In this document: positions 1,501 to 40,834 of the stretch, one piece after another
How positions within the stretch are numbered: the stretch's first letter is position 1
Layout of the letters: every line of letters starts with the position of its first letter
Position numbers and translations under genes: made by a program
NCBI RefSeq assembly: GCF_029350975.1
Contig: NZ_JARKMR010000006.1
Location: forward strand, 62,001 to 126,000
Length of the DNA: 64,000 bases
Direction: 5' to 3'
Source of the DNA: Maribacter zhoushanensis
GTDB taxonomy: Bacteria; Bacteroidota; Bacteroidia; Flavobacteriales; Flavobacteriaceae
Notes under the pieces: generated by a model
What the model was told of the DNA's origin: nothing
The model's database searches: none
What the model saw: the letters and a program-made list of their open reading frames with translations, nothing else

Positions 1501-4131
1501 ATGGAAATTCCTTCAAAATATAATCCGCAAGCCACAGAATCGCAATGGTATGATTACTGGATGAAAAACGGCTACTTTCACTCAGAACCAGATGAGAGAG
1601 AACCTTATAGTATTGTAATACCGCCGCCAAACGTAACCGGTATTTTGCATATGGGGCATATGTTGAACAATACCATACAAGATGTTTTAATAAGAAGAGC
1701 CCGCCTTTTAGGTAAGAATGCTTGTTGGGTACCAGGTACCGATCATGCCTCTATTGCTACAGAAGCAAAGGTCGTTGCCAAATTAAAAGAGCAAGGCATC
1801 AATAAAAATGACCTTACTAGAGATGAGTTTTTAAAACATGCCTGGGATTGGACAAATGAATATGGTGGTATCATTTTAGAGCAGTTGAAAAAACTGGGAT
1901 GTTCTTGTGATTGGGACCGTACTGCGTTCACCATGGATCAAGAGCGATATGATAGTGTAATAAAGGTATTTATTGATCTTTATAACAAAGGTTTAATTTA
2001 CCGTGGGTATAGAATGGTGAATTGGGATCCAGAAGCGCAGACAACTTTGTCAGATGAAGAAGTTATTTATGAGGAGAAACAAGGTCTTTTGTACTATTTG
2101 TCATATGCTATTGAAGGGTCAGATGAAAAGGTGACTATTGCAACCACAAGACCTGAAACTATATTAGGCGATACAGCAATATGTATAAACCCTAATGATG
2201 AAAGGTTTACCCATTTAAAAGGTAAGAAAGTAATTGTACCAATTTGCAATAGAGTAATACCTATAATTGAAGATGAGTATGTAGATGTTGAGTTTGGTAC
2301 AGGATGTTTAAAAGTAACGCCAGCTCATGATATAAATGATAAAGCGTTAGGAGAAAAACATAAGTTAGAAACTATTGACATATTTAATGATAATGCAACC
2401 TTAAATAGTTTTGGATTGCATTATGAGGGTAAAGATCGTTTCGTTGTAAGAAAAGAAATATCTAAAGAATTAGAAGATTTAGGTGTTTTGGTTAAAACCG
2501 AAACCCATATTAATAAAGTAGGTACTTCAGAAAGAACCAAGGCTGTCATTGAACCAAAGTTGTCAGATCAGTGGTTTCTGAAAATGGAAGATTTGGCAAA
2601 ACCTGCTTTAGAAGCGGTAATGGAAAGTGGCGATGTAAAATTGCATCCAAAGAAATTTGAAAATACGTACCGTCATTGGATGGAGAATGTTCGCGATTGG
2701 AATATTTCTAGACAATTATGGTGGGGTCAGCAAATACCGGCGTTTTACTTTGGTGACGGTCAAGAAGATTTTGTTGTAGCGGCTAACATAGCAGATGCAT
2801 TAAAACTTGCAAAAGAAAAATCGGGTAAATCAGATTTACAGGAAAGTGATTTACGACAAGATGCCGATGTGTTAGATACTTGGTTTTCGTCATGGTTATG
2901 GCCAATGAGTGTGTTTGGCGGTATTATGGAGCCAGATAATGAAGAGATAAACTATTATTACCCAACAAACGATTTAGTAACTGGTCCGGATATTTTATTT
3001 TTCTGGGTAGCAAGAATGATTGTTGCCGGTTATGAGTTTAGAGGAGAAAAACCTTTTGAAAATGTTTATTTCACCGGATTGGTGAGAGATAAGCAACGTA
3101 GAAAAATGTCAAAGTCATTGGGTAATTCACCTGATGCTTTAAAGTTGATAGAAGACTATGGTGCGGACGGTGTGCGAGTAGGTCTATTATTAAGCTCGGC
3201 TGCAGGTAATGATTTAATGTTCGATGAAGATCTTTGTCAGCAAGGAAAAAACTTTGCCAATAAAATCTGGAACGGTTTCCGATTGGTGAAAGGTTGGGAG
3301 ATTGCAGATATTCCTCAGCCAGAGGCTTCAAAGCTTGGTTTAGAGTGGTATGAGTCTAAGTTGAATAAAACATTATTAGAGATAGAGGATCATTTTAGCA
3401 AATTCCGTATTTCAGATGCTTTAATGTCTATATATAAATTGGTTTGGGATGATTATAGTTCTTCTTTATTGGAGATTATTAAGCCTGCGTATCAACAACC
3501 TATAGATAGAACTACCTTCAATAAGGTAATAGTGTTATTTGAGCAGAACCTTAAACTTTTGCATCCTTTCATGCCATTTTTGACAGAAGAAGTTTGGCAA
3601 CATATTGCAAAAAGAGATGAGACTGAAGCTTTGGTAATATCAAAATGGCCAACTGTAGGTAAAATTGACGAAGAGTTAATTGCTCAGTTCGATTTTGCAG
3701 CCGAAGTGATTTCTGGTGTTAGAACTATAAGAAAGAACAAGAATATTCCAATGAAAGAAGCTTTGGAATTATCAGTGTTAAATTCTGAAAATGCAAGTAA
3801 CCGTTGGGATGTCGTAATTGCTAAACTTACCAATGTATCTGAAATCAGTTACCTAGATGAACAGTTAGAAGGGGCATTGACTTTTAGGGTAAAGAGTAAT
3901 GAGTACTTTGTGCCAATGGAGGGTGCTATTGATGTAGAGGCAGAAATTGTTAAGATTAATGAAGAACTGAAATATACTAAAGGCTTTTTGATGTCTGTTC
4001 AAAAGAAACTTTCTAATGAACGATTTGTTAATAACGCTCCTGAAAAGGTTATAGCTATAGAACGTAAAAAGTTAGCGGATGCCGAAGCTAAAATAGAAAC
4101 GTTGGAAAAAAGTTTAGCTAGTTTAGGCTAA
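1501..4131 (+). CDS. valS: Valine--tRNA ligase
   Basis: Class Ia aminoacyl-tRNA synthetase that charges tRNA-Val. The length (876 residues) is normal for the bacterial enzyme. The HIGH-type signature is HMGH at residues 50-53 within [13 protein letters not shown], and the KMSKS loop is at 535-539. The editing (CP1) domain lies between them and contains the [10 protein letters not shown] motif. The last roughly 65 residues form the Lys/Glu-rich coiled-coil arm typical of ValRS. The start codon gives the conserved N-terminal phrase IPSKYNPQ. A 14-bp terminator follows, so it appears to be transcribed alone. Confidence 0.98.
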
Positions 4132-12827: not shown

Positions 12828-13472
12828 TTATTTATTTGTCCATTTTGAAGGGTCTTTCCTCCATTCCATTAATGTAATTAACTGCTCTTCTTTTACATAC
12901 CCTTTATCAGATGCTTGTTCAATTAAATATTCATAGCTACTTAACGTATGTAGCTCCGTGTTTTTTTCTTCAAAATTTTTGCTAGCCGTCTCAAATCCGT
13001 AAGTGAAAATCGCCAACATACCCTTTACGTTTGCGTCAATAGCTCTAAGGGCATCTACAGCATTTAAGCTACTTTTACCTGTACTGATTAAATCCTCGAT
13101 AACAACAACCGTTTGGTGCGCTTCTAAATGACCTTCTATTTGATTTTGACGACCGTGAGATTTAGGCTCAGGTCTAACATATACGAAAGGTAAATTAAGT
13201 TTATCGGCAACTAAAGCCCCTATTCCTATTGCGCCTGTAGCCACGCCTACTATGCAATCTGGCTTACCGTAAAGTTGTTCTACTTGCTTGGCCATTTCAT
13301 CACGAATACAGTTTCTGATGATAGGATAAGAAAGTAAAATTCTATTATCGCAATATATAGGAGATTTCCAACCCGAAGCCCATGTAAAAGGATTTTCGGG
13401 TTTCAATTTTATTGCATTAATTTGCAAGAGAAGCTCTGCTGTTTTTTTTGCAGTGTTTTTGTCTAAAACCAT
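12828..13472 (-). CDS. pyrE: Orotate phosphoribosyltransferase
   Basis: Converts orotate and PRPP to OMP in pyrimidine synthesis. The PRPP-binding loop VVVIEDLISTGKSS is at residues 122-135 when the start is placed at 13472 (MVLDKNTAKKTAELL), giving 214 residues, the usual length. The frame is open to 13541, but the extra 23 residues lie inside the divergent NUDIX gene and are not family-like. The flexible catalytic loop EPKSHGRQNQIEG is also present. The start codon touches that of the NUDIX gene, so the two promoters must lie inside each other's coding region. Confidence 0.93.
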   Translation of the reverse strand: MVLDKNTAKKTAELLLQINAIKLKPENPFTWASGWKSPIYCDNRILLSYPIIRNCIRDEMAKQVEQLYGKPDCIVGVATGAIGIGALVADKLNLPFVYVRPEPKSHGRQNQIEGHLEAHQTVVVIEDLISTGKSSLNAVDALRAIDANVKGMLAIFTYGFETASKNFEEKNTELHTLSSYEYLIEQASDKGYVKEEQLITLMEWRKDPSKWTNK

Positions 13473-33553: not shown

Positions 33554-34318
33554 TTAGCGAATTAAGTTAGTAAACTCATCAGTTTTTTCAGTTCCGTTAG
33601 CTGTCAAATGTTTAATAAAGGCGGAACCAATTATTGCACCTTTAGCGGTTTTGGTCGCTTGCTTAAAAGTTTCTTCGTCTTTAATACCGAAACCTACTAT
33701 TTGTGGGTTCTTTAAATTCATTGAAGCTATACGTTCAAAATAATTTTCTTGATCTTGACCAAAGCCAGATTTAGAACCGGTAACACTTGCAGAGCTAACC
33801 ATGTAAATAAATCCATTAGAGGCGTCGTCTATTTGATGAATACGAGCATCACTAGTCTGTGGTGTAATTAGAAAGACATTGATGAGACCGTATTTCTTAA
33901 AAGTAGCCTCATAATCTTCTTGATACACATCTAACGGTAGATCAGGTAAAATGAGTCCGTCAATACCAATTTCTTGACATTTTTTACAGAATGCTTCTAC
34001 ACCGTATTGCAACATTGGGTTAAAATATCCCATAATAATTAACGGAATAGAAACCGTTTTACGAATATCTTTTAGTTGATTGAAAAGAATTTCGGTAGTC
34101 ATTCCATTTTTCAACGCAGCAGTAGAGCTTTCTTGAATTGTTGGTCCGTCTGCTAAAGGATCACTAAAGGGTAATCCAATTTCAATCATATCAACACCGT
34201 TCTTTTCTAAATCTTCAATGATTTTAACGGTATCGTTAAGCGTAGGATAACCAGCGGTAAAATATATGGATAGAAGTTTTTTATCTTCTTGTAATCTTGT
34301 TGTAATTCTATTGCTCAT
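33554..34318 (-). CDS. trpA: Tryptophan synthase alpha subunit
   Basis: Cleaves indole-3-glycerol phosphate to indole and glyceraldehyde 3-phosphate and channels indole to TrpB. A TIM barrel of 254 residues. The catalytic Glu is in MIEIGLPFSDPLADGPTIQ and the catalytic Asp in GLILPDLP. The phosphate-binding GFGIKDEET is near the C-terminus. It starts 7 bases after trpB. Confidence 0.96.
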   Translation of the reverse strand: MSNRITTRLQEDKKLLSIYFTAGYPTLNDTVKIIEDLEKNGVDMIEIGLPFSDPLADGPTIQESSTAALKNGMTTEILFNQLKDIRKTVSIPLIIMGYFNPMLQYGVEAFCKKCQEIGIDGLILPDLPLDVYQEDYEATFKKYGLINVFLITPQTSDARIHQIDDASNGFIYMVSSASVTGSKSGFGQDQENYFERIASMNLKNPQIVGFGIKDEETFKQATKTAKGAIIGSAFIKHLTANGTEKTDEFTNLIR

Positions 34319-34325
34319 AATAGTA

Positions 34326-35510
34326 TTATGCTAACTTAAAATAATCTATATATGTGTTCAAATCTTTATCGCCACGACCAGAAAGGCTAATAACCACCAC
34401 ATCATCTGGTTTGAATTTTTTATGTTCAAAAATTGCAAATGCATGTCCCGTTTCAATAGCAGGAATAATACCTTCTAATTGTGAAAGTTCCAATCCGGCA
34501 GCCATAGCTTCATCATCTGTTGCCGAATAAAATTCTGCACGACCAGATTTGTAAAGATGTGAATGCATAGGACCAACGCCAGGGTAATCTAATCCGGCAG
34601 AAATAGAGTAGGGTTCTGTAATTTGACCGTCTGTCGTTTGCATCAACATAGTTTTACAACCGTGAATAATACCAACTTTACCAAGAGCCGAAGTTGCAGC
34701 ACTTTCACCAGAATTTACTCCTTTCCCGGCAGCTTCAACGGCAATAATACCAACCTCAGGTTCATGTAAGAAATGATAATATGTACCGGCGGCATTACTG
34801 CCACCACCAATACAAGCCACTACATAATCAGGATTTTCGCGCCCCTCTTTCTCTTTTAGTTGCCATTTTATCTCTTCTGATATTATAGACTGAAAACGAG
34901 TAACCATGTCTGGGTAAGGATGCGGGCCAATGGCTGAACCAATAATGTAATGTGTATCTACAGGATTGTTGATCCAATCTCTAATAGCTTCATTGGTTGC
35001 ATCTTTAAGAGTTCTGCTCCCAGATTTTGCAGGTCTTACTTCAGCGCCTAGCATTTTCATACGGGCAACATTAGGAGCTTGACGGGCAATATCAATTTCA
35101 CCCATGTAAACGATACATTCCATACCCATTAAAGCACAGACCGTAGCAGTTGCAACACCGTGTTGACCTGCACCGGTTTCGGCAATAATTCTAGTTTTGC
35201 CCAATTTTTGGGCCATTAAAATTTGACCAATGGTATTGTTGACCTTATGGGCTCCAGTATGGTTTAAATCTTCTCTTTTTAAATATATTTTGCAACCGTG
35301 TTTTTCAGAAAGGCGTTTTGCAAAATATAGGGGAGAGGGTCTACCTACATAGTCTTTTAAAAGCTGATTGAATTCTTTTTGAAAAGAATCTTCATACATC
35401 AGTTTTAAATAATTTTGTCGTAGCTCTTCAACGTTTGGGTACAACATCTCAGGTATATAGGCACCACCAAATTCTCCGTAGTACCCTTTTTCGTCAGCAT
35501 TATAATTCAT
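34326..35510 (-). CDS. trpB: Tryptophan synthase beta subunit
   Basis: PLP enzyme that condenses indole with serine to tryptophan. Length 394 residues. The PLP-binding Lys is residue 89 in [11 protein letters not shown]; the phosphate loop is [10 protein letters not shown], and the catalytic Glu lies in AETGAGQHG. This is the standard TrpB1 type that pairs with TrpA. Its ATG overlaps the trpF stop by 4 bases (ATGA), a coupling signal. Confidence 0.97.
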
Positions 35511-36133
35511 AGCGCTTCTTTAAACTTTTGTAATTCTTCAATATTTTTCAAGCCTGGTTCTATTTCAAAAGAGCTATTCACATCAATGGCATAGCAATAT
35601 TTAGATTCAGGCGTTTTCATAAACTCATTAATCTTGTTCAGATTATTTAAACCAATACCACCGCTTAGAAAGAAAGGTTTTGTGGATGGGTAATTTTTTA
35701 AAACAGACCAGTTAAAGGTGTATCCGTTGCCGCCAGGTAATTTTCCCTTAGTGTCAAAGAGAAAATAGTGGCACACATTTTCATAGGGTTTCAATACATC
35801 AAAATCAAATTCGTCTTTTATGGAGAACACTTTTATGATGTCTACTTTATGATTTAATTTTTTTAATTCAGTTGCAATTTTAGTGCAATATTCTGGACTC
35901 TCATGGCCATGTAATTGTAACCCTTGTAACTGGTGTTTACTAACCATATCAATGATATAATCAAATTCCGCATCAACAAAGACCCCAACTTTACTGATTG
36001 TATGTGGAAGTTCAGGAGTCTCACCTTTAAAAAATCGAGATGAAGGTTCCCAGAAAATAAAGCCTAAATAGTCTGGTCGCAATTGTGCGACTTCAGTTGT
36101 ATTCAGTTTCATTCCACAAATTTTAAGCTTCAT
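35507..36133 (-). CDS. trpF: Phosphoribosylanthranilate isomerase
   Basis: Amadori isomerase of tryptophan synthesis, 208 residues. The N-terminal KICGMK carries the catalytic Cys; GVFVDAEF and the C-terminal [11 protein letters not shown] (phosphate site) are present, and AIDVNSSFE holds the conserved Asp and Ser segment. The start codon shares one base with the trpC stop (TAATG), indicating translational coupling. It is separate from trpC, unlike the fused enzyme of E. coli. Confidence 0.95.
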
Positions 36134-36918
36134 TAGTTCTTAAGGTTTTTAATGAATTCAATAGCACTTTTACCAGGATTATCAGTTTTCATAAAGTTCT
36201 CACCTATTAAAAAGCCCTCATAACCATAAGGTTTTAATTCTTTAATAGCTTCAACAGAACTTATTCCGCTTTCAGAAACCTTTACAAAATCATCTGGAAT
36301 CAATTTTGATAGCAATTTACTTGTATCTAAACTCACCTCAAAAGTCTTCAGGTTTCTATTATTTACACCTAACATATCTAAACTTGGCATAATAGATTTA
36401 TGAAGTTCAGCTTCATTATGAACTTCTAACAATACATCTAAGCCTAAGCTTTTTGCCAATTCAGAATACGTCTTAATTTCTTGTTTCGTTAATATGGCAG
36501 CGATAAGTAAAATAACATCTGCACCATTAGCTTTAGCTTCAATAATTTGATATTCGCTAATAATAAACTCTTTACGAAGTAAAGGAAGTTGAGCAGATGC
36601 ACGGGCTAAAATTAAATCTTCAATAGAGCCGCCAAAATATTTAATATCTGTAAGTACGCTCATACCGCAAACACCAGCTTTTTCATAACCTTTGGCAACT
36701 TGCCCAACATTAGCATTTTGGTTGATGCTTTCTTTAGATGGAGATCTGCGTTTAAATTCAGAAATAATTCCTGTATCACTATTTTTAAGTGCTTGAGCCA
36801 AAGAAATTGTTTTTCTTTCAAAAAGCACAGAAGCCTCATGTTGAGAAACGGGTATAATCGACTTCTTTAAATCGACCTCTTTACGTTTGTCAGCTACTAT
36901 TTTATCTAAAATATTCAT
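36133..36918 (-). CDS. trpC: Indole-3-glycerol phosphate synthase
   Basis: Closes the indole ring from the anthranilate-derived ribulotide. A TIM barrel of 261 residues. Catalytic stretches include ISEFKRRSPSK (Lys), LRKEFIISEYQI, LLEVHNEAEL (Glu) and LGVNNRNLKTF, ending with the phosphate-binding GFLIGENFM. The gene lies 45 bases after trpD; the gap contains a small TCTCGT/ACGAGA hairpin (36939-36954). Confidence 0.96.
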   Translation of the reverse strand: MNILDKIVADKRKEVDLKKSIIPVSQHEASVLFERKTISLAQALKNSDTGIISEFKRRSPSKESINQNANVGQVAKGYEKAGVCGMSVLTDIKYFGGSIEDLILARASAQLPLLRKEFIISEYQIIEAKANGADVILLIAAILTKQEIKTYSELAKSLGLDVLLEVHNEAELHKSIMPSLDMLGVNNRNLKTFEVSLDTSKLLSKLIPDDFVKVSESGISSVEAIKELKPYGYEGFLIGENFMKTDNPGKSAIEFIKNLKN

Positions 36919-36963
36919 ATACTAATTGTTCTTTGCCATCTCGTTATTACGAGACACGAAGCT

Positions 36964-37959
36964 TTAATTTTTACTCAGTTCCTGTATTTTTTTCAAAGCA
37001 GTTAATCCGTGTCCACCTAGTAAAGATTCTTTAGCTTTTTCAAACCCTTCAAGAGGAGTAAGGTTCTTTACTGTAGCAATTGCAATACCTGCATTGGCAC
37101 ACACTACATTATTTTGCGGCTCAGTACCTTTACCTTGTAAAACATTAAGGAATATTTGCGCCGAAGTAACAATAGAATCTCCACCAACAATATCACTTTG
37201 CTTTATTTGATTTACACCAAAATCAGATGGTTTTAGCATGCTTTCAGTATGATTAGAAATGGTTTTGGTATTTCCTGTAAGGGAAATTTCATCATAACCA
37301 TCTAATGCATGAAGAACAGTAAAGTTTTTATCGGTTTTCTGATACAGATATCCGTACATGCGAGCTAATTCTAAATTGAAAACACCCACCATTTGGTTTT
37401 TAGGAAAAGCAGGATTTACCATAGGACCTAACATATTAAAGAATGTCTTTACCGCTAAATCTTTACGAATAGGAGCTACATTTTTCATAGCAGGGTGAAA
37501 TAGGGGAGCGTGCAATACACAAATACCAGCTTCTTCAATACATTTTTCTAAGAAACCTGCATCATTACTAAATTTTATCCCTAAAAATTCCATCACATTA
37601 CTACTACCACATTTAGAAGATACCCCGTAATTACCATGCTTAGTAACTTTAATGCCCGCACCAGCGGTAACAAAAGAAGAAAGTGTAGAGATATTGAAGG
37701 TGTCTTTACCGTCACCCCCTGTACCACAAAGGTCAATAGGGTTGTAGGTAGATAAATCTACCGCCAAACATAGATCAAGCAATGCGTCTCTAAATCCTTC
37801 AAGTTCCTCTATGGTAATACTACGCATCATATATACGGTTAAAAATGCAGCAATCTGACTAGTGTTGTAATCACCTTTGGCAATATTTACCAAAATGCGT
37901 TTAGCATCTTCCTTAGAAAGTATTTCGTGATTTATAAGTTTATTTAATGTCTCTTTCAT
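36964..37959 (-). CDS. trpD: Anthranilate phosphoribosyltransferase
   Basis: Transfers phosphoribose from PRPP to anthranilate. Length 331 residues. The PRPP site is DLCGTGGDGKDTFNIST, with KHGNYGVSSKCGSSNVME and the later LGPMVNPA typical of the family. It is not fused to trpG. A 70-base gap separates it from trpG; no terminator is seen there. Confidence 0.96.
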   Translation of the reverse strand: MKETLNKLINHEILSKEDAKRILVNIAKGDYNTSQIAAFLTVYMMRSITIEELEGFRDALLDLCLAVDLSTYNPIDLCGTGGDGKDTFNISTLSSFVTAGAGIKVTKHGNYGVSSKCGSSNVMEFLGIKFSNDAGFLEKCIEEAGICVLHAPLFHPAMKNVAPIRKDLAVKTFFNMLGPMVNPAFPKNQMVGVFNLELARMYGYLYQKTDKNFTVLHALDGYDEISLTGNTKTISNHTESMLKPSDFGVNQIKQSDIVGGDSIVTSAQIFLNVLQGKGTEPQNNVVCANAGIAIATVKNLTPLEGFEKAKESLLGGHGLTALKKIQELSKN

Positions 37960-38029
37960 TTTTTAAAGTATTACCTAGTTCGTATTGGTACGGCGCAGTC
38001 AATATTGCCCTCGTACTTGATACTTATTA

Positions 38030-38599
38030 CTATGCTTTGGCGTTCAACCAATTCTCTAACATTTTTTTTCCATGTGGTGTAAGAACAGATTCTGGATGAA
38101 ACTGCACGGCACGTACATCATAGGTTTTATGGCGAAGCGACATAATTTGCCCGTTCTCATCAACCGAAGTAGCTTCTAAAACTTCTGGCAAATCAGTATT
38201 AACAACCCATGAATGATATCTGCCTACTTCAATTTCGTTAGGTATATCTTCAAAAATGACATCTTCTTTTGTGATTTTTATCGTCGTAGCAATGCCGTGA
38301 TATACTTTGTCAAGGTTTATTAAGGAACCTCCAAAAACTTCAGCAATAGCCTGTTGTCCTAAACAAACACCAAAGATACTTTTGGTTGGAGCGTATTTTT
38401 CTATAATCTGTTTTAATAAACCAGCTTCATCAGGTATGCCTGGTCCTGGAGAGAGTACAATTTTTTCAAAAGCATCAACCTCTTCAAGGGTAAGTTGGTC
38501 ATTACGTTTTACAATTACTTCACAGCCTAATTCTTCTAAATAATGCACTAGATTGTAAGTGAAACTATCGTAATTATCTATAACTAATATTTTCTTCAT
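38030..38599 (-). CDS. trpG: Anthranilate synthase glutamine amidotransferase subunit
   Basis: Supplies ammonia from glutamine to TrpE. A class I amidotransferase of 189 residues: catalytic Cys79 in FGVCLGQQAIAE, with His168 and Glu170 in VQFHPES. The start is directly after trpE (one base between stop and ATG). In some bacteria the same subunit also serves para-aminobenzoate synthase. Confidence 0.95.
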   Translation of the reverse strand: MKKILVIDNYDSFTYNLVHYLEELGCEVIVKRNDQLTLEEVDAFEKIVLSPGPGIPDEAGLLKQIIEKYAPTKSIFGVCLGQQAIAEVFGGSLINLDKVYHGIATTIKITKEDVIFEDIPNEIEVGRYHSWVVNTDLPEVLEATSVDENGQIMSLRHKTYDVRAVQFHPESVLTPHGKKMLENWLNAKA

Positions 38600-38600
38600 T

Positions 38601-39998
38601 TTAAATGTCTTCAGCTATTTCTAATGCCTTGGTCAAAGCTCCTAGTTTATTGTATGTTTCTTGTAATTCACTTTCAGGGTCTGATGCAGCAACTAATCCG
38701 GCACCGGCCTGATAATGCAATTTGTGATTCTTGCTTAGAAAAGTTCTAATCATAATGGCATGATTGAAGTTTCCGGAAAAATCCATAAAACCTATAGCTC
38801 CGCCATAATAACCACGACTGGTTTTTTCATATTTTTCAATAAGTTGCATTGCCATGTGTTTTGGCGCACCGCTTAATGTACCGGCAGGAAAAGTATCTGC
38901 AACCACTTTCATGGTAGGTATATCACTTTTCTTCATTCCGGTAACCTTAGAAACCAAGTGTATTACATGAGAGAAGAATTGTACCTCTCTATAATTTTCT
39001 ACCTGTACTACACTACCGTTTCTACTAAGGTCGTTACGGGCAAGATCAACTAACATGACATGCTCACTGTTTTCTTTATTGTCCGTTTTCAATTCTTTGG
39101 CAAGTTGAGCATCTTGCTCATCATTTCCGGTTCTTTTAAATGTGCCGGCAATAGGGTGAATTTCAGCCTTGCCTTCACTAACGATTAGTTGGGCTTCTGG
39201 TGAACTCCCAAATATTTTAAAATCACCATAATCAAAATAAAACAAGTATGGAGACGGATTAACAGAACGTAATGCTCTGTACACGTTAAATTCATCACCT
39301 TTAAAACCTTGAGAAAAACGACGGCTTAAAACAAGCTGAAACACATCGCCACGTTGACAGTGTTTTTTAGCTAAGTCTACATGTTCTCTATATTCAGCAT
39401 CTTCTAGGTTAGATTCTCTTTTACCCTCTATTTTAAAATTGTAAGTAGCAAAGTTTCTAATACTTAAAAGTTGTTCTAATTCTGGTATATTATTCTCGGT
39501 ATTATAACAATGTGCAAATAGGTAGGCTTCATTTTTATAATGGTTTATAGCAATGATATTTTGATATACGGCGTAGTAAATATCTGGAATATGAACAGAG
39601 TCATCTTTAACCGAAATATCTACATCTTCAAAATATCGAACAGCATCGTAAGCCATATAGCCAAACAACCCATTGTTAATGAACTTATAGTCATTGTTAT
39701 CTGCCTTAAAAGCTTTACTGAAATTATCTATAATCTCTACAACGTTTGTTTCAGGGGAAATTTTAATTTCTTCGGTAACCCCATCAGGAAATTGTTTAAC
39801 AATGATTTCATTTTCCACTTTAATAGAAGCAATTGGGTTACAGCATATATAGGAGAAGCTATTGTTGTTAGCGTGGTAATCGCTACTTTCTAATAATATA
39901 CTATTAGGAAAACGGTCTCTAATTTTTAAATAAACGCTTACCGGCGTCATAGTGTCGGCAAGAATTTTTTTATGATATGTCTTAAATTGATAGGTCAT
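38601..39998 (-). CDS. trpE: Anthranilate synthase component I
   Basis: Converts chorismate to anthranilate with ammonia from TrpG. Length 465 residues. The chorismate-binding domain is shown by SPEAQLIVSEGKAEIHPIAG, LVDLARNDLSR, and the C-terminal FPAGTLSGAPKHMAMQLI. The N-terminal feedback region contains LLESSDYH (the LLES tryptophan-binding motif), so feedback inhibition by tryptophan is expected. It is the first structural gene of the operon and lies behind the attenuator at 40011-40131. Confidence 0.96.
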   Translation of the reverse strand: MTYQFKTYHKKILADTMTPVSVYLKIRDRFPNSILLESSDYHANNNSFSYICCNPIASIKVENEIIVKQFPDGVTEEIKISPETNVVEIIDNFSKAFKADNNDYKFINNGLFGYMAYDAVRYFEDVDISVKDDSVHIPDIYYAVYQNIIAINHYKNEAYLFAHCYNTENNIPELEQLLSIRNFATYNFKIEGKRESNLEDAEYREHVDLAKKHCQRGDVFQLVLSRRFSQGFKGDEFNVYRALRSVNPSPYLFYFDYGDFKIFGSSPEAQLIVSEGKAEIHPIAGTFKRTGNDEQDAQLAKELKTDNKENSEHVMLVDLARNDLSRNGSVVQVENYREVQFFSHVIHLVSKVTGMKKSDIPTMKVVADTFPAGTLSGAPKHMAMQLIEKYEKTSRGYYGGAIGFMDFSGNFNHAIMIRTFLSKNHKLHYQAGAGLVAASDPESELQETYNKLGALTKALEIAEDI

Positions 39999-40010: not shown

Positions 40011-40045
40011 AAAATAAAGAAGGCTTGTCGTGATGACAAGCCTTT
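40011..40045 (-). terminator. trp attenuator terminator
   Basis: On the minus strand AAGGCTTGTC (40045-40036) pairs perfectly with GACAAGCCTT (40030-40021) around ATCAC, followed by CTTTATTTTAT. It lies between the leader peptide and trpE, so read-through is needed to express the operon. Confidence 0.85.
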
Positions 40046-40080
40046 ATATAGTTTTACTACAATGATGCTTTGCTCACGAT
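40029..40080 (-). promoter_or_regulatory. trp antiterminator pairing
   Basis: Minus-strand 40080-40068 can pair with 40042-40029: TCGTGA with TCACGA, then G-C, CAA with TTG, and GC with GC, a total of 12 pairs interrupted by three single-base bulges. This uses the terminator's 5' arm and loop, so it excludes the terminator. The upstream strand overlaps the leader peptide stop codon. Confidence 0.65.
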
Positions 40081-40131
40081 GTTTTTCGTAAGTTGTTCCA
40101 CCACCAAGTATTTGCGATTAAATTTTTCATT
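40075..40131 (-). CDS. trpL: trp operon leader peptide
   Basis: An 18-residue ORF, MKNLIANTWWWNNLRKTS, with three consecutive Trp codons (TGG at 40107-40099) and a TGA stop at 40077-40075. It starts about 4 bases after the predicted transcription start and 8 bases after the -7 box. Three adjacent Trp codons in such a short ORF, followed by alternative antiterminator and terminator structures and then trpE, is the classical layout of ribosome-mediated attenuation. Ribosome stalling on Trp codons would leave 40080-40068 free for the antiterminator; reaching the stop would cover it. Confidence 0.88.
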
Positions 40132-40138
40132 GAGCATC

Positions 40139-40169
40139 AAATATAAAAAGGAAATTTAAACTTTCAAAC
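40139..40169 (-). promoter_or_regulatory. trp operon promoter
   Basis: Minus-strand TTTG (40169-40166), exactly 19 nt, then TATATTTG (40146-40139): a perfect Bacteroidota consensus. The start site falls near 40135, just before the leader peptide ATG at 40131. Confidence 0.8.
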
Positions 40170-40180
40170 TTTACTTTGTC

Positions 40181-40221
40181 AAAAATAAAAATCCCTTTGA
40201 ATATATCTCAAAGGGATTTTA
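40181..40221 (-). terminator. Rho-independent terminator of the marR-yceI operon
   Basis: A perfect 13-bp stem (40189-40201 with 40209-40221) with a 7-nt loop is followed on the minus strand by a T-rich run. It isolates the trp promoter from the upstream operon. Confidence 0.85.
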
Positions 40222-40252: not shown

Positions 40253-40834
40253 CTATAGTGCTAAATCTACTACCAAATCAAAATCATCATAAATAGCTTT
40301 GTCTCCTAAATTATCAAAGAAGCTTCCTGAACCATACTTAATATCAAATTTAGTTCTGTCAACTTTTAAGGTTGCGGTAGCCTTGTTTTCAAACATAGAA
40401 ACTACAAGTGTAACAGGCTTTGTAATACCTTTAATAGTTAAGTCTCCGGTTACAGTATATGAATTGTCGTTCATAGCTTTAACAGAAGTAAAAACTAATT
40501 TAGAAGTAGGGTTATTTTCAACACCAAAGAAATCTGCAGATTGTAAATGACCTTCTAACTTTTCTTTTCCTTGACCTGCTTGTAAATCTGAACAAGAAAT
40601 GGAAGTCATATCAATTACAAACTCGCCACCAATTAATTTCTTGCCTTTCATTTCTAAATGACCAGATTTCAGATTGATAGTTCCTTCATGAGAACCTGTA
40701 ACTTTATAACCTTTCCAAGTAACGGTGCTCTCACTAACTTTTACTTCTTTTTTTTCTGACTCAATAGGGGTAGAAGCGGTTGCTGTATATCCGAAAACGG
40801 CAACGAATACTAAACTTAATAATGATTTTTTCAT
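40253..40834 (-). CDS. YceI family protein
   Basis: A 193-residue periplasmic protein with a signal peptide (LLSLVFVAVFGYTATAST) and the YceI lipocalin-like fold: STVTWKGYKVTGSHEGTI, then GKEKLEGHLQSADFFGVENN, then VTGDLTIKGITKPVTL. YceI proteins bind polyisoprenoids in structural studies; the physiological role is unclear. It is the last gene after marR and a nitroreductase, and a terminator follows. Confidence 0.93.
   Translation of the reverse strand: MKKSLLSLVFVAVFGYTATASTPIESEKKEVKVSESTVTWKGYKVTGSHEGTINLKSGHLEMKGKKLIGGEFVIDMTSISCSDLQAGQGKEKLEGHLQSADFFGVENNPTSKLVFTSVKAMNDNSYTVTGDLTIKGITKPVTLVVSMFENKATATLKVDRTKFDIKYGSGSFFDNLGDKAIYDDFDLVVDLAL

Follow-up and report, generated by a model that had tools for sequence, protein, structure and literature searches.

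A probable ribosome-mediated trp attenuator of the Bacteroid-trp family, predicted to be nearly leaderless, upstream of trpE in Maribacter zhoushanensis

Organisation of the trp locus and its leader

The stretch analysed here, called the window, comprises 64,000 nucleotides of Maribacter zhoushanensis contig NZ_JARKMR010000006.1 and carries on its minus strand the genes trpE, trpG, trpD, trpC, trpF, trpB and trpA, in this order. The genes were assigned from ORFs and Pfam matches, with TrpG, TrpD and TrpB named from broad Pfam matches plus position. TrpE is 98% identical to that of Maribacter sp. 1_MG-2023, and its gene starts at 39998, downstream of the terminator of a short leader; trpEGDCFBA is presumed to be an operon under control of this leader. 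Listed in the direction of transcription, the features are:

40188..40220, minus strand: terminator-like hairpin (by fold) after an upstream YceI-domain gene (40253-40834, Pfam YceI)
40165..40168, minus strand: -33 element TTTG, 19 nt ahead of the -7 box, read directly
40138..40145, minus strand: -7 element TATATTTG (Bacteroidota consensus TAnnTTTG)
40133, minus strand: predicted transcription start, from the box spacing given in published start-site maps (PMC6847099, PMC9723704)
40074..40130, minus strand: leader ORF MKNLIANTWWWNNLRKTS, 18 codons plus TGA, read directly (ATG 40130-40128, TGA 40076-40074)
40099..40110, minus strand: 5' strand of the outer helix, holding most of the Trp codon run (folding; within the stem of the Rfam model)
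40098..40106, minus strand: three consecutive Trp codons, TGG TGG TGG, nine bases invariant in a 38-sequence alignment
40086..40092, minus strand: 5' strand of the protector, CUUACGA (folding and alignment)
40073..40079, minus strand: 3' strand of the protector, UCGUGAG, spanning the leader stop codon (folding and alignment)
40067..40079, minus strand: 5' strand of the antiterminator, UCGUGA (40079-40074) plus AAGC (40070-40067) (folding)
40055..40067, minus strand: 3' strand of the outer helix, with 40059 unpaired (folding and alignment)
40028..40041, minus strand: 3' strand of the antiterminator, GCUU (40041-40038) plus UCACGA (40033-40028) (folding)
40020..40044, minus strand: putative intrinsic terminator AAGGCUUGUC-AUCAC-GACAAGCCUU (DNA: AAGGCTTGTC-ATCAC-GACAAGCCTT), from sequence and fold
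40011..40019, minus strand: T-rich tail CTTTATTTT, read directly
33554..39998, minus strand: trpE, trpG, trpD, trpC, trpF, trpB and trpA (ORFs and Pfam)

UCGUGA is common to the protector 3' strand and the antiterminator 5' strand, and the antiterminator 3' strand takes up part of the terminator 5' arm, four loop bases and two bases of the 3' arm. The hairpin at 40188..40220 would limit read-through from the YceI gene into the leader. A preliminary description of the locus had placed a promoter (TTTG, 19 nt, TATATTTG) and an 18-codon leader ORF where we find them, at 40168-40138 and from 40130 to 40074 on the minus strand. The three consecutive TGG codons and the terminator with its T-rich tail that it reported are also present, but both sets of coordinates (40107-40099 and 40045-40021) were one off, the true positions being 40106-40098 and 40044-40020.

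The leader belongs to a catalogued RNA family and its Trp run is conserved

The leader scores 51.4 bits against Rfam RF01692 (Bacteroid-trp; gathering cut-off 49) over model positions 1-131, and in a scan of the window at gathering thresholds this is the sole Rfam match near trpE. The window leader therefore already belongs to a catalogued family, to which the preliminary description had not assigned it, and the element itself is not new. Bacteroid-trp appears in Table 1 of a 2010 paper by Weinberg et al. as a likely cis-regulatory RNA of Bacteroidetes (PMC2864571), a 2019 report places such an element upstream of the trp operon of Flavobacterium psychrophilum and compares it with attenuation in E. 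coli (PMC6414381), and a 2021 transcriptome study describes clues for leader-peptide attenuation before amino-acid operons, naming 5' elements of pheA and hisG (PMC9723704). In those parts of the literature that our search covered, no further paper on the window's element was found beyond those cited here. The window shows the leader ORF with tandem Trp codons and the position upstream of trp genes expected of a Bacteroid-trp element. It also shares with RF01692 the trp operon context and a long stem with interruptions, in which the Trp codons lie and whose inner part covers the protector region. The Rfam model ends within the terminator 5' arm, and its structure line differs from the architecture described here in having neither terminator nor antiterminator.

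Scanned at E <= 0.001 with fast filters, RF01692 matches 141 of 199 sampled genomes of the family Flavobacteriaceae (123 above the cut-off), and a class-level sample gave 12 matches in 247 genomes, 10 of them above the cut-off. TrpE is present in 183 of the 199 family genomes, and 42 of these 183 have no RF01692 match. A leader was found in all 18 of these 42 Rfam-negative genomes that were read, which suggests that many members escape detection by Rfam at the settings used; all 18 leaders contain WW or WWW. These 18 were the genomes with listed TrpE coordinates, and hence the better TrpE matches, and two of their leaders are identical in string to loci of the named set defined next; genome G066, whose trpE match starts at a contig end, was left out.

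For closer comparison we used a named set of 80 loci, consisting of the closest relatives among the matches listed (80), minus L110, whose trpE is cut at its 5' end, plus the window. In all 80 of these closest listed loci, trpE is preceded by a leader that starts with ATG, is 15-18 residues long and contains WWW. A Trp-run leader also precedes trpE in the 30 of 30 best Rfam-scoring family loci and in 41 of 41 further Rfam-positive loci, two of which (L184 and L193) start with TTG, were missed by the ATG-based script and recognised by eye, and have a longer distance from box to start codon. A relative keeping its trp genes and lacking the Trp codons, which according to the preliminary description would refute attenuation, did not occur among the trpE-upstream leaders read, the 18 of 42 Rfam-negative genomes included. 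Within the M. zhoushanensis genome, searching with a broad pattern for further leaders with a Trp run gave no useful signal (140 + 96 matches vs. 138 + 99 in the reversed control).

The last leader codon reads NCG in 79 of the 80 closest listed loci, encoding Ser in 71, Thr in 4, Pro in 2 and Ala in 2, and L008, L013 and L014, whose stop codon is at another position, retain CGTGA. Because of these two features, the sequences suggest that selection acts on the leader RNA rather than on the peptide. Within the window's clade there is hardly any variation in the terminator loop UCAC or in the CGUGA that pairs with it.

Some loci depart from the usual layout. The gap from leader stop to trpE is 433-521 nt in eight of the 79 closest listed relatives (L074, L044, L059, L068, L071, L086, L089 and L111), vs. 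69-136 nt in the others. In L074 this gap holds a gene for a 94-residue GIY-YIG nuclease (2175-2459, plus strand; Pfam E 1.1e-16), an odd neighbour to find behind a Trp attenuator, and the stretches read from the other seven loci contain similar coding sequence. In four class-level loci (L112, L113, L116 and L119) a trpB-like sequence, identified by eye, lies directly upstream of trpE and the Bacteroid-trp match lies further upstream still, so that the operon order seems to differ; the leaders of these four fall outside the region upstream of trpE that the leader search script covered.

Folding of the free and ribosome-bound leader

The free leader folds at -31.6 kcal/mol, compared with a mean of -17.0 for shuffled sequences, and 0 of 200 shuffles fold as low. 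Its minimum-energy structure contains the terminator, the protector CUUACGA:UCGUGAG and an outer helix in which CAUCAUUG and AGUA are paired with the Trp codons. Across the 80 closest listed loci, the free RNA forms the protector in 79, the outer helix in 79 and the terminator in all 80. The preliminary description had found no protector helix, and this was wrong: the hairpin forms, enclosed by the outer helix. Its antiterminator does exist; the best fold is however not 12 pairs with three single-base bulges but 6 + 4 pairs (UCGUGA:UCACGA and AAGC:GCUU) separated by an internal loop.

To represent a stalled ribosome, the RNA was masked to 15 nt past the first base of the P-site codon, the assumed ribosome edge. 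With the transcript ended at the terminator loop, stalling at the first, second or third Trp codon gives the antiterminator in 75, 79 and 80 of the 80 closest listed loci, respectively. Placing the ribosome on the stop codon instead yields the terminator in all 80 loci and the antiterminator in none. The UGA indeed lies inside the antiterminator's upstream strand, as had been proposed, and folding with and without a ribosome footprint bears out the expected switch, with the antiterminator arising on stalling in the partial transcript only. In the finished transcript with a stalled ribosome, the terminator is still the lowest-energy state in 78-80 of the 80 closest listed loci, and therefore antitermination must depend on timing, with the antiterminator occupying the loop and closing bases of the terminator while its 3' arm is still to be made.

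In a further control, only the spacer between Trp codons and terminator was shuffled. For the window, the energy of the free RNA is attained by 22 of 1000 such shuffles, and that of the stalled state (-15.9) by 2 of 1000. In a wider set of 175 sequences (166 distinct strings), the stalled-state energy beats all 20 spacer shuffles in 94. Helix counts separate poorly from shuffled spacers (98.9% vs. 42.7%), and we therefore relied on energies and position-specific conservation instead.

Conservation and covariation of the helices

The leaders were filtered at 93% similarity to give the alignment of 38 sequences, in which 87.1% of the cells of the three helices are paired, vs. 29-54% when the strands are slid. 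Taken separately, the protector columns are 86.5% paired, the outer-helix cells 76.7% and the terminator pairs 100%. RNAalifold predicts protector and terminator unaided; the outer helix was not predicted by this program on the alignment. The covariation score for the three helices is reached by 1 of 500 shuffles, but 82 of 500 have as many pairs with changes on both sides, an ordinary result; overall, covariation in this set is weak. Aligning trpE-upstream regions, a check proposed in the preliminary description, thus yields the invariant TGG run in the 38 sequences but little compensatory change, which for the antiterminator is at the level of shuffles.

The antiterminator columns are 94.7% paired in the 38 sequences, vs. 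17-45% when slid, and both strands are nearly invariant. Antiterminator covariation equals that of shuffles (340 of 500 reach it), and a version slid by +3 scores 0.086 vs. 0.084. In the set of 175, the best spacer complement of the loop region is significant against shuffles (p <= 0.05) in 139 sequences, and twelve sequences are without one of the two motifs CGTGA and TCACG. Among these twelve, loop and spacer still pair with other letters in L120 (GCUGUUC:GAACAGC) and L151 (GUCAUCGCG:UGCGAUGAU); in L149 the loop complement is only 4 bases.

The bases flanking the two motifs were also considered. A U before UCACG goes with A (38/48) or G (10/48) after CGUGA, all of them pairable, and a G before UCACG goes with C (2/2). 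For A before UCACG, the state found in the window and in most members of its clade, the partner is G, with which it does not pair, in 87 of 100 distinct strings (94 of 109 before removal of duplicates). We rejected this association as compensatory evidence for the window's clade, since its commonest state, A/G, is unpaired; it is an association with paired states in other members, and is probably grouped by descent.

A predicted near-absent 5' UTR

In the window the leader ATG sits 7 nt after the -7 box. Published start-site maps of Flavobacterium johnsoniae and F. psychrophilum number the final base of the box -5, with transcription starting 4-5 nt past it (PMC6847099, PMC9723704), and this spacing therefore predicts a start at about 40133 and a 5' UTR of about 3 nt in the window. 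The preliminary description had put the ATG about 4 nt from the start, a near estimate that the comparison with relatives supports. Of the 80 closest listed loci, 76 have a TANNTTTG box whose end is 4-8 nt upstream of the leader ATG, and in three of the named loci the box reads TTTA. Where a named sequence has its box no more than 9 nt from the ATG (76 sequences), TTG precedes that box by 19 or 20 nt in 70 cases. Leader transcripts are thereby predicted to start 0-4 nt before the AUG, that is, to be leaderless or nearly so.

In one relative, L067 (Pareuzebyella), the -7 box lies 30 nt before the leader ATG and ACT stands where the relatives have their ATG, which would fit loss of the original start and gain of a new one further downstream.

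The short distance from box to ATG is not family-wide. In 93 loci outside the named set it is 4-8 nt in 29, 9-13 nt in 14, 14-22 nt in 45 and more than 22 nt in 4, and one locus has no box. On a TrpE tree of 116 rows, which is without the 18 Rfam-negative loci, the window's fork of 83 rows comprises 81 short, 1 mid and 1 long distance, and the short label needs 7 changes vs. 26 for shuffles; the fork has support 93 (not starred) in a tree that was made by a quick method and has long branches, and a G or A was allowed at the box end. Among the 18 Rfam-negative loci read, 11 have a distance of 4-5 nt. Nine Rfam-negative loci, none of them in the named set, have a WW/WWW leader that starts 4-5 nt past the box: L146, L149, L151, L153, L154, L156, L158, L159 and L160. 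From the sequences, the short 5' UTR would thus cluster in the window's clade yet be scattered in other members of the family, which weakens a one-clade claim, and leaderless forms may have arisen more than once.

Such boxes are not generally found at this distance: of 54 long ORFs in the window, 13 have one within 150 nt and one of those 13 has it at 3-9 nt. A 214-residue ORF at window position 13472 (minus strand) starts 4 nt after TACATTTG and is a candidate leaderless protein-coding gene; its product resembles an orotate phosphoribosyltransferase.

A near-zero 5' UTR is unusual because leaderless transcripts and short leaders are rare in the mapped species. Of the 5' leaders mapped in F. 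johnsoniae, 87% exceed 10 nt (PMC6847099), leaderless mRNAs make up 5.5% in F. psychrophilum (PMC9723704), and 5' UTRs under 10 nt about 3.7% in Bacteroides thetaiotaomicron. No statement of leaderless attenuators in Bacteroidota was found in the literature covered, mostly titles and abstracts, which is not proof of absence.

Other amino-acid leaders in the genus

In all 19 Maribacter genomes of the sample of relatives, the hisG leader carries an HHH run and its start lies 7 nt past TACTTTT and one additional base; this base is A in 18 and G in 1, and the box departs from the consensus. Upstream of ilvD, 17 of the 19 genomes have an Ile/Val-rich leader that begins 4 nt past a TANNATTG-type box, a spacing at which the AUG would be at +1; the search pattern itself required a box 2-8 nt upstream, and the two remaining genomes gave no clear leader. 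The pheA leaders (FYFYFFF) start about 18 nt past a degenerate box. In most of the pheA-upstream loci L267-L285, a terminator-like hairpin comes after a strongly conserved Phe/Tyr leader, e.g. MTKQYFWNGFYFYFFFKRGTGLL; this looks like an attenuator that is not leaderless. A Thr/Ile-rich short ORF before thrA in L289 and L296 (MDCYKTDI... in L289), about 21 nt past a TACTTTTG box, is a possible threonine attenuator. Another candidate thrA leader in L296, MINEMSSKG..., was set aside since a different Thr/Ile-rich ORF lies nearer the gene, 21 nt past TACTTTTG, and thr is therefore not read as leaderless. By prediction, then, a near-zero 5' UTR would occur in three of five Maribacter leader types (trp, his and ilv, not phe or thr), the his and ilv leaders following weaker boxes than the trp leader.

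Proposed mechanism and alternatives

Taken together, these data make us confident that the element is a ribosome-mediated transcription attenuator of the trp operon belonging to the Bacteroid-trp family. The helices and their conservation are computed; the regulation itself and the start sites we infer. Transcription would start 0-4 nt before the leader AUG. When charged tRNA-Trp is scarce, a ribosome would stall on the three UGG codons and open the outer helix and the protector hairpin, and the UCGUGA..AAGC strand so freed could pair with the loop and 5' arm of the terminator ahead of synthesis of the 3' arm, upon which RNA polymerase would continue into trpEGDCFBA. With ample Trp, the ribosome would get to the UGA within the antiterminator strand and mask that strand, and the terminator would form. 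In an untranslated leader, protector and terminator should both form, making off the default state. Attenuation of trpEGDCFBA by translating ribosomes was also the central proposal of the preliminary description, and it agrees with the conserved leader, terminator and antiterminator and with the lack of a TrpR or TRAP match.

Several other explanations deserve consideration. The antiterminator upstream strand overlaps the leader stop, where a terminating ribosome would mask it, and this could point to a simpler three-segment attenuator that lacks a protector and terminates solely through the ribosome covering that strand. We regard this as quite unlikely, given that the protector hairpin and outer helix form in the free RNA of 79 of the 80 closest listed loci, and that the protector is well paired in the alignment of 38 (86.5% of its columns) and predicted unaided by RNAalifold. 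The near-zero 5' UTR predicted for 76 of the 80 closest listed loci, with similar spacing at the his and ilv leaders of the genus, might instead mean that the leader mainly senses translation initiation or its own 5' end, via leaderless 70S initiation, with the Trp codons merely adding sensitivity. This is very unlikely: the repeated residues fit the pathway in each case (Trp for trp, His for hisG, Ile/Val for ilvD, Phe/Tyr for pheA), and family members with a longer distance from box to ATG retain the Trp leader and the helices.

Control by a TRAP-like RNA-binding protein, a T-box or a repressor, with the ORF being incidental, has no supporting point that we could find and seems extremely improbable. 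The search for regulators covered TrpR (PF01371) and TRAP (PF02081), neither of which has a match in the 99.98% complete genome, where positive controls did match, and Bacteroid-trp is the sole Rfam match near trpE. Stalling at the Trp codons within a full set of protector, antiterminator and terminator thus remains our preferred explanation.

Beyond the window, we tentatively propose, at somewhat less than even chances, that attenuators in the Maribacter/Muricauda/Zobellia/Arenibacter clade and scattered others (trp, and in Maribacter also his and ilv) are near-leaderless, with the first ribosome loading on the AUG as it leaves RNA polymerase, and that the antiterminator also sequesters the terminator loop UCAC. 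If this is true, it would mean tight coupling from codon 1 in bacteria that do not use Shine-Dalgarno sequences, Bacteroidota, in which few mRNAs are leaderless, would have a leaderless class of regulatory elements, and the sequestration of UCAC would explain the near-invariant loop as a kinetic trap. We consider the recurrent near-zero predicted 5' UTR of trp, his and ilv leaders to be the noteworthy part of this work. In any case, the trp leader offers a Trp attenuator that is well conserved and has all its helices, from a phylum that uses its own type of promoter and no Shine-Dalgarno sequences. Such attenuation implies that the leading ribosome stays near RNA polymerase, and a single reporter built on these leaders would therefore allow both coupling and leaderless initiation in Bacteroidota to be measured.

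Comparison with known systems

The classical E. coli trpL attenuator has a leader peptide with tandem Trp codons, a protector, an antiterminator, a terminator and a U-rich tail, all of which have counterparts in the window. The window differs in its near-zero predicted 5' UTR, in having three Trp codons and in the location of the stop codon inside the antiterminator strand. With regard to the 5' end, there is a parallel in another phylum: Sinorhizobium meliloti trpL (rnTrpL) is described as a leaderless Trp attenuator whose RNA begins at the leader ATG, and its leader peptide and attenuated RNA are reported to act in trans as well (PMC7298713). Both are Trp attenuators, and the window's would be leaderless by prediction. 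A mycobacterial Cys-rich uORF upstream of cysA2 has likewise been proposed as an attenuator, in organisms where leaderless transcripts are described as common (PMC4633059); it resembles the window in using a short ORF as an amino-acid attenuator, but belongs to another phylum and concerns another amino acid.
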